64,000 bases of DNA from Janthinobacterium sp. 64 (lineage in GTDB: Bacteria > Pseudomonadota > Gammaproteobacteria > Burkholderiales > Burkholderiaceae_D). Numbering within the stretch: the stretch's first letter is position 1; each line of letters starts with the position of its first letter. A program made the position numbers and the translations under genes. The notes under the pieces were generated by a model. It made no database searches, was not told where the DNA came from, and saw only the letters and a program-made list of their open reading frames with translations. Where the stretch lies: positions 4,588,001 to 4,652,000 of the forward strand of contig NZ_PHUG01000001.1 of the NCBI RefSeq assembly GCF_002813325.1. Direction: 5' to 3'. Shown here one piece after another: positions 58,899 through 64,000 of the stretch.

Positions 58899-60407
58899 AT
58901 GGATCTTAAAACTTCTGGGGATTGGGCCGTGCCCTCCGGCGTCTGGTACGTCGACGACGATGGTGCGTGGAGCATGCAGCGCAGCGCAGACGGCCAGAAC
59001 GTCTCGCCCCTGCTGAGCCAGGCCGATATCGGCAAGCTGATGCACGCGCGGCGCCTGCCGGCTGCCGCCGGCGCGCCCGTGCGGCTGTTTCCGCCCGAAT
59101 TTGCGTTCGATCCCGCCTCGGGCGCGGCCTTGCAGGTGCCGCCCGAGGCGGCCGCCACGCCGTCCGGGGTGCCGCCTTGGGTGCCCCCTTTCGGCGCACA
59201 CCCCGTCAGCGACGTGCCGCCGGCCGGCGCGGCCGGCTTGCGCCAGGCCAGCGTGCCCCTGAAGCTGGCGGACCAGCGCGCGCGCGAAGAGCATGCGCAA
59301 GCCGATGCCTCGCTGCCCATGCCGCCACCGGGCGAATACGAATTCTTTTCCGCGCAGTTCGGCACCAGCGCGCCCGCGCTGCTGGCGCTCGACCCGCGCA
59401 AGGCCGTCTTGCACGCCTGGCTGCCCGCCTCGAAACGCTGGCTGGCGCTGGACCCCGACCATGGTGGCTTGCTGGCCGAATCGGACCTGGCCCACGGCGC
59501 CTGGCGCGCCGAGCTGGTGCCGGAGTTCAACAGCGTGCTGGTCTTGCCGACCAGCCATGGCCTCGCTTGCATCCGTCCCGACGTGCCGTCGCTCACTTAC
59601 GTGGTCGAGCACGTGGGCGGCGCGCCGTGCGTGGCTGCGCCCGTCTGGTTCCAGAATCGTTTGTGGGCGCCTTTGCGCGACGACGATGGCCGCATCCGCT
59701 TCGTCAATCTTGACGCACAACAAAAGCCGGGCAGCGACGTGCTGCTCGACGGCATGATGGACCTCGGTGCCGTCGGCGCGCCCGTGGCCTACAACCGCAT
59801 GGCCGTGTGGCCGTGCGCCAACGGCCAGCTGCGCTTGCAGCTGCAGCCCGATGGCAATGTGGCCGCCTCGTTCACGCCGTGGCCCGAAGGGCTGGTGCCG
59901 CACTTCGAATTCGGCAGCCCCTACCTGTCGCGCGACGGTGGCCTGTGGCAATTGTGCTTTGAAAGCCGGCGCGGCACTTATGTCTATGTGAAACTGGGCG
60001 CCCAGGTCGAGAAGGCCGACGCGCTGGCGCCGCGCCTGTGTTCGGGCAGCTTCAATTACCGCTTCGCCACCAAGCTGAAAACGGCGCCGTGGGAAGAGCC
60101 GGAACACGGCGACGATGGCGGCAAGAACCAGGCCGTCATGCCGCTGCTCGAATCGGGCGCCGAGTCCGGTGTCAGCAGCAGCGTCTTCGGCGTCAAGTTC
60201 GCCACCAGCGCCGGCCTGTCGAGCGTGCTGCGCTCGAACGAGCGCCTGGCGGCCCAGCTGGTGCAGGACGATGAATTGCGCGAAACCGTGTTCCATACGT
60301 TTGCCGTCAGCGAACCGTGGCGCTTGCGCCTGTTTGTCCATGAAGGCACGCTGTGGGCATATCACCGGCTGCTGTCGCGCATCGATGGCTGGGCCTTGCA
60401 GGCATGA
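58899..60407 (+). CDS. Cytosolic beta-propeller-like protein of tubulin cluster
   Basis: I start at 58899 (MDLKTSGDW, 502 aa). No signal peptide or membrane helix is seen. The N-terminus (WAVPSGVWYVDDDGAWSM) and a Pro/Ala-rich linker (about 60-135) precede a beta-rich region. There, three blade-like repeats begin at about residues 245 (VAAPVWFQNRLWAPL), 292 (VGAPVAYNRMAVWP) and 338 (FGSPYLSRDGGLWQL), each about 46-47 residues long with a W on the second strand. This suggests a partial or divergent beta-propeller. I recognise no family. Its stop overlaps the next start (ATGA), so it is coupled to the vWA-like gene. Confidence 0.75.
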   Translation: MDLKTSGDWAVPSGVWYVDDDGAWSMQRSADGQNVSPLLSQADIGKLMHARRLPAAAGAPVRLFPPEFAFDPASGAALQVPPEAAATPSGVPPWVPPFGAHPVSDVPPAGAAGLRQASVPLKLADQRAREEHAQADASLPMPPPGEYEFFSAQFGTSAPALLALDPRKAVLHAWLPASKRWLALDPDHGGLLAESDLAHGAWRAELVPEFNSVLVLPTSHGLACIRPDVPSLTYVVEHVGGAPCVAAPVWFQNRLWAPLRDDDGRIRFVNLDAQQKPGSDVLLDGMMDLGAVGAPVAYNRMAVWPCANGQLRLQLQPDGNVAASFTPWPEGLVPHFEFGSPYLSRDGGLWQLCFESRRGTYVYVKLGAQVEKADALAPRLCSGSFNYRFATKLKTAPWEEPEHGDDGGKNQAVMPLLESGAESGVSSSVFGVKFATSAGLSSVLRSNERLAAQLVQDDELRETVFHTFAVSEPWRLRLFVHEGTLWAYHRLLSRIDGWALQA

Positions 60408-61873
60408 AGGCGCGCTTACTGAGCGTGGCCTGCGCCGCGTTGTTCAGCGCTGCCGCCGCGCACGCGGCCGGCATCCAGCAAGCGTTTCTGGTGCAAAATT
60501 CGGGCTGGATGGAGCCGTTCTACACGGATGAACACTCGCAACTGAAAGCGCTGGTGGGCGCCGTGGCGCAGGCCGCTACAAACCCGTCCGATAAAGTCTA
60601 TACCCTGGCCTTCAGCCAGAGCAGCGGCAGCAATGTGTCGCCCGCACTGATCGGGCAGGGGCAGGGCGGCGCCGGCGTGGCGGGCCAGCTGGCCAGTCTG
60701 GGCCTGGCGCGCAAGAGCGCCGGCGGCGCGCTGGCCGACACGGATTTCCAGGAAGCCGTGACCAAAACCATCACGGGGCCGTTCCAGTCCGCCTCCGGCA
60801 TCGTGTGGATCTTTACGAATAACAAGAACAGCCCCAACAACGACAGCCAGACGGCCGAGCGCAACCGCGACTTTTACCGCTTGCTGCATCTGGAACCGTC
60901 GATCACCAAGACCTTGGTGTTTCCGCTGCGCATGCCCGTGCAGGGCAAGCTGTACAGCGCCAAGGGCTTGATGGTGTATGCGCTCGCATATGGCCAGCCC
61001 GCGTCCGAGGCGTTGACCCGCATCCTGGCCGAAGGGCGGCTGTCGCAAGTGCTGACGCGCCCGCCCGCGCGCTTGAAACCGGTAGACCAGGATGCCGTGC
61101 GCATCGTGCCCCAGTCCGTCAAGAACAGCGCCAACGTACACGCCAGCCTGGGCCGCGACGGGCGCACCATCGTGCTCGACGTCGATGCGGCCAAGCTGGT
61201 GCCGCAAGTGGTGCTGCAAGCGTCCTTGCAAAACATGTTTTTCCCGTACGTGATCGACAGCGCCAAAGTGCACGCGAGCCTGGCGGGCCAGAACGCGCCG
61301 CTGCACGTTGCGCCAGATCAAATCCGCCAGCTGCAGCCGGGTGCCAGCCAGGCCGTGCAGGTACAGTTTGCGTTGCCGATGGCGCAGATTCCGTCGCCGT
61401 GGTCGGCGCAGGCGATCGCCGCCATGGGCAAGCAAGTGATGCTGCCGATGCAGGCGCAAGTGGGCCTGTCGGAACAGCGGCTGGCGCTGGCGTCCAGCTT
61501 TGGCAAGGATTTGCAGGAACTGTTCCCCGGCGACCCGATTTCCAGCATGTTCACGCCGCCCGACAGCGTGCGCGCCTCGCAGGCAACGATCCCGCTGCTG
61601 GTGCGCATCCAGTATCCGCTCTTGCCCGTGCTGGTGATACTGGGCGGCGTGCTGGCGCTCGTGCTGGGTTTGCTGGCGCTGGGTTTGCTGGGCACGCGCG
61701 CCACGCGCTACAAGGTGATGGCCGACGGCGTGCAGCGGCAAGTGCTGTTGAAACCGTTCAAGAGCGTGCAGATCCGCGATGACGACGGCCGCGACATCGG
61801 CGAACTCAAGCGGGGCCTGGGCCAGCCCGCCGTCGTGCGCGTAGCCGAAGGCCATACCCTGAGCCTGGCCTGA
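60404..61873 (+). CDS. Exported, membrane-anchored vWA-like protein
   Basis: The start at 60404 (MKARLLSV, 489 aa) overlaps the previous stop. A signal peptide ends near AHA (about 1-21). A vWA-like fold follows (about 24-200). The strand FLVQNSGWM (28-36) aligns with the MIDAS motif (DxSxS) of vWA domains but has Q31 and W35 at metal positions, and IFTNNKN (about 137-142) replaces the later Asp. A beta-rich middle (about 230-400) leads to one membrane helix (about 404-432) and a cytosolic tail of about 57 residues (beta-rich, FHA-like at most). It may link periplasm and cytosol. Confidence 0.7.
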   Translation: MKARLLSVACAALFSAAAAHAAGIQQAFLVQNSGWMEPFYTDEHSQLKALVGAVAQAATNPSDKVYTLAFSQSSGSNVSPALIGQGQGGAGVAGQLASLGLARKSAGGALADTDFQEAVTKTITGPFQSASGIVWIFTNNKNSPNNDSQTAERNRDFYRLLHLEPSITKTLVFPLRMPVQGKLYSAKGLMVYALAYGQPASEALTRILAEGRLSQVLTRPPARLKPVDQDAVRIVPQSVKNSANVHASLGRDGRTIVLDVDAAKLVPQVVLQASLQNMFFPYVIDSAKVHASLAGQNAPLHVAPDQIRQLQPGASQAVQVQFALPMAQIPSPWSAQAIAAMGKQVMLPMQAQVGLSEQRLALASSFGKDLQELFPGDPISSMFTPPDSVRASQATIPLLVRIQYPLLPVLVILGGVLALVLGLLALGLLGTRATRYKVMADGVQRQVLLKPFKSVQIRDDDGRDIGELKRGLGQPAVVRVAEGHTLSLA

Positions 61874-61917
61874 ACAATCACTCCCTAAAAATTCCTTCCA
61901 TTCAACAGAGGCATACC

Positions 61918-62358
61918 ATGGCGCAAGACACCCCAAAAGACAATGCAGGTTTCACCTTGCCAGCACCGGCGTCCGCGCCGCCCGCCGCCGATGCACCGGC
62001 TGCCGGCGCTGCGGCTACCACGGCCACGACCGAAGCTGCACCCGCGTTGGACCCTGCCAGCACGACCGACACCTCGTCGCGCGACACCCTGGTCGGCGGC
62101 GTGGTGCTGTTGCTGCTGTTCATCGCCTTTTTCTTTGCCAAGAATGCCTATGCAAATGGCCTGGTGGCCAAGCGCGTGCCGCCGAACAAGGCCAATGCCT
62201 CGGGCTGGTGGCTGTTCATCTTCCTGGCCAGCCTGGCGACCGGTGTCGTGCTGGCCGCCGTAAACGCGCATAAATTCCTCGCGCCACTGTTCATGGGACC
62301 GCTGGTGCTGGTGGGCTTGGTCGCCCTGTTGCTGACTTTTACTTCCAGCCGCCGTTAA
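61918..62358 (+). CDS. Small multi-pass membrane protein of tubulin cluster
   Basis: This 146-residue protein has an Ala/Pro/Thr-rich disordered N-terminus (about 1-55). Three hydrophobic helices follow (about 58-80, 97-118 and 122-141), with a conserved-looking loop RVPPNKANASGWW, and the chain ends SSRR. No family is recognised. It sits 44 bp after the vWA-like gene and 34 bp before the tubulin-like gene, and probably anchors or recruits partners at the inner membrane (inferred). Confidence 0.75.
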   Translation: MAQDTPKDNAGFTLPAPASAPPAADAPAAGAAATTATTEAAPALDPASTTDTSSRDTLVGGVVLLLLFIAFFFAKNAYANGLVAKRVPPNKANASGWWLFIFLASLATGVVLAAVNAHKFLAPLFMGPLVLVGLVALLLTFTSSRR

Positions 62359-62392
62359 GCACGCCGTAACACGCATCATCGAAGGAATCACC

Positions 62393-64000
62393 ATGGCAGA
62401 GAACCTGAACCAAACCATCACCGGCGGCGCCAGCGAGCGCAAGCAGGACAAGATCATCGAACTGCGCCCGACCCTGTTCATCGGCATCGGCGGCACGGGC
62501 ATGCAGGTGCTGATGCGCGTGCGCCGGCGCATCCTCAACACCCTGTGGGGCGGCGCGGGCAACCGCACGCGCATCGAGGGCCTGGCCGACTTTCCCATCG
62601 CGCAATTCATCCATTTCGACCTCGACAATGGCGCAGTGATCGAGAGCGGCGAGTCGCAGGCGAAGGACTTGCAGTTCGACCAGGTGAAGTTCACGGACGA
62701 TGACAAGGTGGTCGAATCGTTCGACATGGACAAGTACAGCCGCGATGAAGACTCGCTGGAAAAATATCCGCACATCAAGGAATGGCTGCCGCTGACGCCG
62801 CAGCGCATCCGCGAATTGCGTTTCGACATGAGTAGCGGCGCCGGCCAGATCCGCGCCGTCTCGCGCCTGTATTTCTTCGATAAATATGCAAAGATCCGCG
62901 ACAAGATCCGCTTGAAGCTGAAAGCGCTGAAGACGGGCCTGTCGCACGATCGCCAGCTGGCCGAACTGGGTTTGCGCATGGAAACGAACCGTTTCCGCAT
63001 CGTCATCGTCGGTTCCGTCGCCGGTGGCACGGGGTCCGGTTCCTTCCTCGACATGGGCTTGCTGGCGCGCTGGCTGGCGCGCAGCGAAGTGGGCGCGGCC
63101 GACGTCGAGCTGATGCTGTTCTTGCCGACCGGCTACACCAAGGCCAACAAGGACCGGGTCGAGGCCAATGGCTATGCGGCGCTGATGGAGCTGGAATCGG
63201 CGATGATGGGCAATAAAGGCTATGTGGGACGCTGGGATGCGTATGACCGCCCGGAACTGACGCGCGAGCCGTACAGCGAGGTCTACCTGATCGATTCGGG
63301 CAACCTGGCCCAGCAGCACACCAAGGATGTCAGCGACGTCTACCACATGGTGGCCGATTCGCTGTTCGAGGATTTCGCCTCGGCCGACTTCGCGCGCGCC
63401 AAGCGCTCGATCGCCGTCAACCAGGCGCAGCACAAGAACTCGCTGTACAACGCGCCCGTGCCGCAAGACCGCTTCGGCGACATGCGCCTGTATTTCTCGA
63501 AGCGCTTTTCCTCGTTCGGCATGGCCGTGCTCGATACGCGCCAGGAAGCGGCGCGCGATGAGCGGGCTCACCGCTGGGCCGGCGCCATGCTGCAAGCGTT
63601 CTTTGGCGTGGGCGGCACGGATGCGGGCGCCAACCGGGCCACGGATACGCAGCGCGACAATTTCCTCGCCGCCAATATGTTCCTGAAAGGCACGCCGTTC
63701 AGCGACTTCCCCGAGTTTTCCGACAAGAGCATCGAACTGAAGCGCTCCAGCGGCGACTTCATCGATTTCCGCGTCGTCGACGAATTGCTGGAAGACCGCC
63801 ACGGCCACTTGCTGGCCGGCGTGGAAAACCGGGTCAACACGCGCATCAACGATATCCGCACGGGTTTTGACCGCAGCGAATGGCCGGCGCAGGTGCGCGA
63901 CGCCATGAAGCATCTGGAACGCGACGCCGTGCGCGACCAGGATTCCACGGCCGACACGACGGAAGACCGCATCAGCAAGCGCCGCCGCGAAGTGCTGGAA
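62393..64000 (+). CDS. Tubulin/FtsZ-superfamily-like protein (3' partial)
   Basis: From the ATG at 62393 (after GAAGGAATCACC) the frame stays open for 536 codons to the window edge, so the stop is outside. The N-terminus has LFIGIGGTGMQVLMRV (GIGGTG 31-36), like the first nucleotide loop of tubulins and FtsZ. GSVAGGTGSGSFLDMG follows (GGTGSG 211-216), corresponding to the tubulin signature loop. The pattern fits the bacterial tubulin-like family (Pfam Tubulin_2 / FtsZ-like families described from comparative genomics). The rest is long, charged and helical. Neighbours suggest a membrane-linked, nucleotide-dependent polymer or scaffold; no function is proven. Confidence 0.8.
   Translation, partial: MAENLNQTITGGASERKQDKIIELRPTLFIGIGGTGMQVLMRVRRRILNTLWGGAGNRTRIEGLADFPIAQFIHFDLDNGAVIESGESQAKDLQFDQVKFTDDDKVVESFDMDKYSRDEDSLEKYPHIKEWLPLTPQRIRELRFDMSSGAGQIRAVSRLYFFDKYAKIRDKIRLKLKALKTGLSHDRQLAELGLRMETNRFRIVIVGSVAGGTGSGSFLDMGLLARWLARSEVGAADVELMLFLPTGYTKANKDRVEANGYAALMELESAMMGNKGYVGRWDAYDRPELTREPYSEVYLIDSGNLAQQHTKDVSDVYHMVADSLFEDFASADFARAKRSIAVNQAQHKNSLYNAPVPQDRFGDMRLYFSKRFSSFGMAVLDTRQEAARDERAHRWAGAMLQAFFGVGGTDAGANRATDTQRDNFLAANMFLKGTPFSDFPEFSDKSIELKRSSGDFIDFRVVDELLEDRHGHLLAGVENRVNTRINDIRTGFDRSEWPAQVRDAMKHLERDAVRDQDSTADTTEDRISKRRREVLE

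Follow-up and report, generated by a model that had tools for sequence, protein, structure and literature searches.

An FtsZl1-type tubulin homologue and its putative trans-envelope partners in a conserved Janthinobacterium operon

What does a tubulin-like protein do when it is encoded together with a von Willebrand factor A (vWA)-like protein and membrane proteins? This question is raised by a chromosomal operon at the 3' end of a 64,000-nucleotide stretch of DNA (the window; G000:C1:4588001-4652000) from the 6.3 Mb genome of Janthinobacterium sp. 64, a soil bacterium. A first-pass annotation had read the four visible genes as a tubulin-like protein with propeller-like, vWA-like and membrane partners. 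The genes, their order and their conservation point to a trans-envelope complex round an FtsZl1-type tubulin homologue, an architecture to which we assign a probability of about 0.85. The full mechanism proposed below, including a Ter-type stress role, is more tentative and stands at a little under even odds.

FtsZl1 proteins were predicted in 2010 (Makarova and Koonin; PMC2875224), in the comparative-genomic work to which the first-pass annotation had correctly alluded. A 2023 evolutionary analysis excluded them and pointed out that FtsZ_C and Tubulin_C, the Pfam domains, are missing from them. Comparisons made here draw on the cited papers, among them also PMC9871819 and PMC5898192. A literature search found no experiment on FtsZl1 proteins or on the function of this operon. 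The operon touches two long-standing questions, the function of FtsZl1 and that of Ter proteins. An interrupted but complete tubulin fold (predicted), recurring partners on both sides of the membrane and, in some lineages, physical links to Ter genes give the earlier, loose prediction the form of a complex that can be tested, and Janthinobacterium, which is easily grown, is a place to test it.

Organisation of the operon

Genes 1-4 all lie on the + strand, and sequence read past the window (L002; window position = L002 position + 58499) extends the operon, as had been expected, through the remainder of gene 4 to two more genes on the same strand. Lengths are in amino acids (aa).

Gene 1, 58899..60407, + strand: 502 aa, ATG at 58899
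Gene 2, 60404..61873, + strand: 489 aa, ATG at 60404
Gene 3, 61918..62358, + strand: 146 aa membrane protein, 44 bases after gene 2
Gene 4, 62393..66070 (L002:3894-7571), + strand: 1225 aa FtsZl1/Tubulin_2 protein, 34 bases after gene 3; only its 5' part (62393..64000) is within the window
Gene 5, about 66104-67300, + strand: 398 aa, past the window end
Gene 6, 67318-68064, + strand: 248 aa, past the window end

The open frame of gene 1 would permit a start as far 5' as 58812. Its stop and the gene 2 start share ATGA, and the sequence bears out this overlap together with the strand, the gene positions and the two gene 4 loops that the first-pass annotation had listed.

Gene 4 as a tubulin homologue

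The central claim, that gene 4 belongs to the tubulin superfamily, is supported by sequence and by a structural model. Its product matches Pfam Tubulin_2 (PF13809), the family that had been proposed as a check, with E 4.9e-61 and a score of 207.4 bits (cut-off 27). The GIGGTG and GGTGSG loops occupy residues 31-36 and 211-216, and in an alignment of 38 rows the T1 residues G33-G34-T35-G36 and the T4 residues A210-G-G-T-G-x-G216 are invariant. E326-D327-F328 and D/E332, found in 38/38 rows, are a candidate for the acidic T7 catalytic loop, placed by element order only. In the predicted structure of a homologue that is 98.4% identical to gene 4 (L068), the tubulin fold, including its C-terminal domain, is present but interrupted by a helical region; in this model, residues about 460-816 are mostly helix (DSSP).

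At the C-terminus, gene 4 carries a GYF_2 domain (PF14237; E 1.3e-12) with proline-rich stretches on its flanks. The long helical interruption and the GYF tail set gene 4 apart from CetZ, tubulin and TubZ, with which it shares 8-17% identity among the rows listed. A PDB sequence search with the gene 4 profile gave no convincing relative, and a canonical FtsZ is encoded elsewhere in the same genome.

Probable partners on both sides of the membrane

The second gene had been called vWA-like, and its vWA-fold domain upholds this label. An N-terminal signal-like segment is followed by these parts:

Residues about 22-221: vWA-fold domain without the canonical residues of the metal ion-dependent adhesion site (MIDAS)
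Residues about 226-405: immunoglobulin (Ig)/PapD-like domain
Residues 406-430: transmembrane (TM) segment, followed by a small beta domain

Judging from an alignment of 44 rows, the canonical MIDAS residues (DxSxS...T...D) are replaced in gene 2: at this site Q31-N-S33-G-W35 and T113 are invariant, and N139-N140 follows the next strand, the mapping to MIDAS being by element order. Pfam VWA did not exceed its cut-off (2/44 members matched, best E 0.042), and a PDB sequence search with the gene 2 profile found no convincing relative. The top Foldseek rows were a mixture of Fusexin, KirBac, SPD-2 and integrin with low TM-scores, and no conclusion was drawn from them by themselves.

The small membrane protein of the first-pass annotation is gene 3, with a Pro/Ala-rich N-terminus and then three hydrophobic windows. 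Gene 5 begins with a zinc-ribbon-like part (two CxxC pairs by eye; Zn_ribbon_3 at E 0.072, under the cut-off) and continues through a proline-rich linker and a single hydrophobic window at 108-126 to a further part beyond. Gene 6 has a signal segment ending in LAGC, as in a lipoprotein, and weak DUF533 and Gly-zipper matches, both under the cut-off.

Gene 1 has no hydrophobic window. Its relatives are 23-58% identical (alignment A4); 13/43 weakly match Zn_Ribbon_1 at the N-terminus (best E 0.0034), and one carries a TerD domain there. The propeller label given to it could not be confirmed: no propeller family appears among the Pfam matches of the 43 members, the PDB sequence search returned no relative, and pieces of the alignment compared with themselves gave weak self-similarity only. 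As a whole, the earlier interpretation is partly supported. To it can now be added an interrupted tubulin fold and a GYF domain in gene 4, replaced MIDAS residues in gene 2, the further genes 5 and 6, and neighbouring Ter genes in some relatives.

Conservation across genomes

The cassette is common in its genus and sparse in its order, as genome counts of Tubulin_2 and gene 2 indicate. Tubulin_2 is found in 38/40 genomes of the genus (36/37 good ones) and in 32/145 genomes of the family (7/44 genera), 31 of them over the cut-off; the remaining one (G031), below it, was dropped before the later counts. An even draw from the class, own genome counted, gave 5/369 genomes with Tubulin_2 (4 over the cut-off), while gene 2 was present in 8/399 genomes and 5/159 genera of an even draw from the order, again counting its own genome.

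The arrangement of genes 1-4 is more than chance, because the same order recurs at 23/27 family and class loci (tblastn, own locus counted) and at 79/80 named loci, the 80th being cut by a contig end. The four remaining family and class loci (L047, L060-L062) hold different Tubulin_2 kinds and were dropped before the counts. Within the 23 cassette loci, the lowest tblastn identities are about 24% (gene 1) and 37-44% (genes 2-4). The named loci come from a search with gene 2 alone, which gave 171 relatives among 207 stretches and from which the best 80 were taken, so gene 2 is present in all of them by construction; a gene 3 relative occurs in 80/80. The neighbourhood conservation sought across Burkholderiales also extends beyond that order, since the titles include Janthinobacterium, Massilia, Duganella, Pseudoduganella, Rubrivivax, Rhodoferax, Paraburkholderia, Variovorax, Azohydromonas and Azoarcus, as well as Rhodanobacter, Acinetobacter, Thiodictyon, Methylococcaceae, Parendozoicomonas, Humidesulfovibrio and one metagenome-assembled genome (MAG) labelled Bacteroidales. 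By a loose test, the gene 1 stop is NTGA, a possible start overlap, in 73/79 named loci.

Gene 5 was detected by profile in 57/80 named loci, 68 of which have room for it. Twelve of the 23 loci without a match have <700 bases after gene 4; in the other 11, the next gene shows, by eye, two CxxC pairs in four (L109, L115, L117, L137) and a partial CxxC pattern in two (L113, L118). Gene 6 was found by profile in 42/80, in one of them (L111) away from the cassette; it is absent from 25 loci with >1.5 kb after gene 4 and was not found in a large Massilia/Pseudoduganella group. These counts give a strict core of four genes. Five are the rule, and the window's branch is among those that have six. The genes flanking the cassette vary between lineages.

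Ter genes beside the cassette in some relatives

In some relatives, the cassette is contiguous with genes of Ter (TerD/TerC/TerB/TerY) stress-response operons. For example, a Thiodictyon locus (L109) carries on one strand four TerD genes, TerC, FGE, TerB, FGE, genes 1-4 and then another TerD, whose protein begins with CxxC pairs. A Methylococcaceae MAG (L111) has TerD, TerD, vWA, TerD, vWA, TerY and PP2C after gene 4. TerD also directly follows gene 4 in L110, and TerD matches lie upstream of the cassette in L112. In one protein group (P0240, three member sequences), a TerD domain is fused to the greater part of gene 1. As to function, the Ter neighbours speak for a stress response no less than for membrane remodelling. 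A literature search that largely lacked subscription papers found no paper on a link between the FtsZl1 cassette and Ter.

Proposed mechanism

In the preferred reading, gene 4 would be a cytosolic protein combining the interrupted tubulin fold, a long helical region and the C-terminal GYF domain, and would assemble in a GTP-dependent manner, with GTP hydrolysis and polymerisation both presumed. It would be tied to the inner membrane via gene 3, the post-TM segment of gene 2 and gene 5. The GYF domain would most likely dock on proline-rich stretches, either of gene 5 or of neighbouring gene 4 subunits. On the far side of the inner membrane, the envelope may be read or loaded by the gene 6 lipoprotein and by the vWA and Ig domains of gene 2, whose ligand site is altered, and gene 1 would act as a soluble adaptor. 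Although the genes, their order, domains and hydrophobic segments and, in some relatives, the Ter contiguity are observed, this cellular topology is inferred. The most likely function would be to sense and mechanically answer envelope or chemical stress in a pathway shared with Ter (TerD/TerC).

Several observations weigh against this reading. The gene 4 fold is a prediction from 38 sequences with a pTM of 0.71, a profile comparison with FtsZ aligned the T4 loop only, and gene 6 is not constant across the named loci. P0240 is the only TerD-gene 1 fusion among the 68 proteins listed. TerD was found in just 4/80 named loci, in two lineages (three Thiodictyon, one Methylococcaceae), and in 0/26 of the loci L042-L067, with a TerD profile built from these same hits and with many loci short. 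No Ter gene is part of the operon in the window's genome; the nearest, about 18 kb downstream with cytochrome oxidase and further genes in between, are a presumably TerC-like gene, so named from its position, and the two TerD genes that follow it (G000:C1:4674138-4676064). Seven TerD matches occur in this genome in all. Across genomes, TerD accompanies Tubulin_2 in 27/31 cases versus 11/114 others (odds ratio 63), but an unrelated control, VipB of the type VI secretion system, is also high (28/31 versus 37/114, odds ratio 19). This co-occurrence was therefore not counted as support and may largely reflect kinship and genome size.

A bolder version, which we consider doubtful, makes the tubulin with its inserted helical arm the force or scaffold arm of a Ter-type stress response, a machine found across Proteobacteria. 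Cytosolic sensing of chemical or pore damage by Ter proteins would come first; the tubulin would then assemble and stiffen or reseal the envelope via the zinc-ribbon, TM and vWA proteins.

Alternative explanations

Membrane remodelling or vesicle formation, in which an FtsZl1 filament bends the inner membrane and vWA and membrane proteins anchor it (PMC2875224), is the best of the alternatives and still unlikely. The operon shares with the 2010 FtsZl1/vWA system a Tubulin_2 protein with a helical extension beside vWA and membrane proteins, and the predicted full fold makes filaments more plausible. However, the P-loop GTPase, kinase and OmpA partners that are frequent there, if not universal, have no match over curated cut-offs in the six proteins, and MIDAS is intact in most members of that system but replaced in gene 2. 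The present operon further differs in its recurring GYF end, gene 1, gene 3 and zinc-ribbon-like gene 5, in the helical region that interrupts the tubulin fold in the model, and in the Ter genes adjoining it in some lineages, which indicate another role. A reviewer in 2010 also doubted how a cytosolic FtsZl1 would meet periplasmic partners (PMC2875224). The trans-envelope architecture would meet this objection with explicit bridges, as TM proteins stand between a cytosolic GTPase-fold protein and the extracytoplasmic vWA protein and lipoprotein.

An infection-triggered immune or conflict system, with a tubulin/vWA/zinc-ribbon/GYF complex akin to GAP1-N2 systems, is a little less probable still. 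Some GAP1-N2 systems of Firmicutes and Actinobacteria do combine tubulin with an extracellular or membrane-bound vWA protein, their GTPases occur with zinc ribbons, and GYF proteins are found in those of Planctomycetes (Kaur et al. 2020; PMC7159879); ter operons, moreover, have been implicated in phage inhibition (PMC8123226). In contrast, the six proteins here have no match over the cut-off to a GTPase, FNIII or effector, and no variable effector was seen. A known anti-phage defence system was rejected: PADLOC assigned the six proteins to 0 families, and a search with gene 2 gave no match among 72,556 plasmid and 50,697 phage records and no confirmed one among viral contigs. Near-constant presence of this chromosomal locus in the genus, a constant core and the lack of mobile-element hits favour a house-keeping or stress role over conflict.

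Surface motility or adhesion, with a cytosolic polymer joined to the envelope by zinc-ribbon, GYF and polyproline contacts as in the Myxococcus Glt machine, where zinc-ribbon and GYF domains of GltJ contact a GTPase, is very unlikely. In its favour, gene 4 residues 1154-1217 match the GltJ model (E 3.4e-6) at 26.4 bits, far below the 450-bit cut-off; against it, this match is confined to the GYF end, a common domain.

Neighbouring genes and related loci

The next called genes 3' of gene 6 are on the opposite strand and encode a 156 aa product and then a second protein, presumably ComF-like; methyltransferase and cytochrome oxidase genes lie farther downstream.

Other Tubulin_2 genes occur in different settings. 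A second match with a frame of about 1000 aa is present in 3/40 genus genomes, and in one of these (L047; G538:C1:5907000-5926000) the 994 aa gene has a caspase-fold protein (Peptidase_C14), a DUF4384 protein and an ABC transporter as neighbours. In L060 (G447:C80), the neighbours of a 1005 aa Tubulin_2 gene are a neutral zinc metallopeptidase and an NMT1_3 (TAXI-like) protein; the latter brings to mind the TRAP-type neighbour that a 2010 reviewer mentioned for Polaromonas (PMC2875224). A TAXI/TRAP partner considered for L114 was rejected, as no Pfam match was found.

In the MAG labelled Bacteroidales (L137), perhaps the result of wrong binning, a series of zinc-ribbon-like motifs at the end of gene 4 takes the place of the GYF domain. 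In Parendozoicomonas, a same-strand phosphorylase-superfamily (PNP_UDP_1) gene immediately precedes the cassette (L118:7408-8187).
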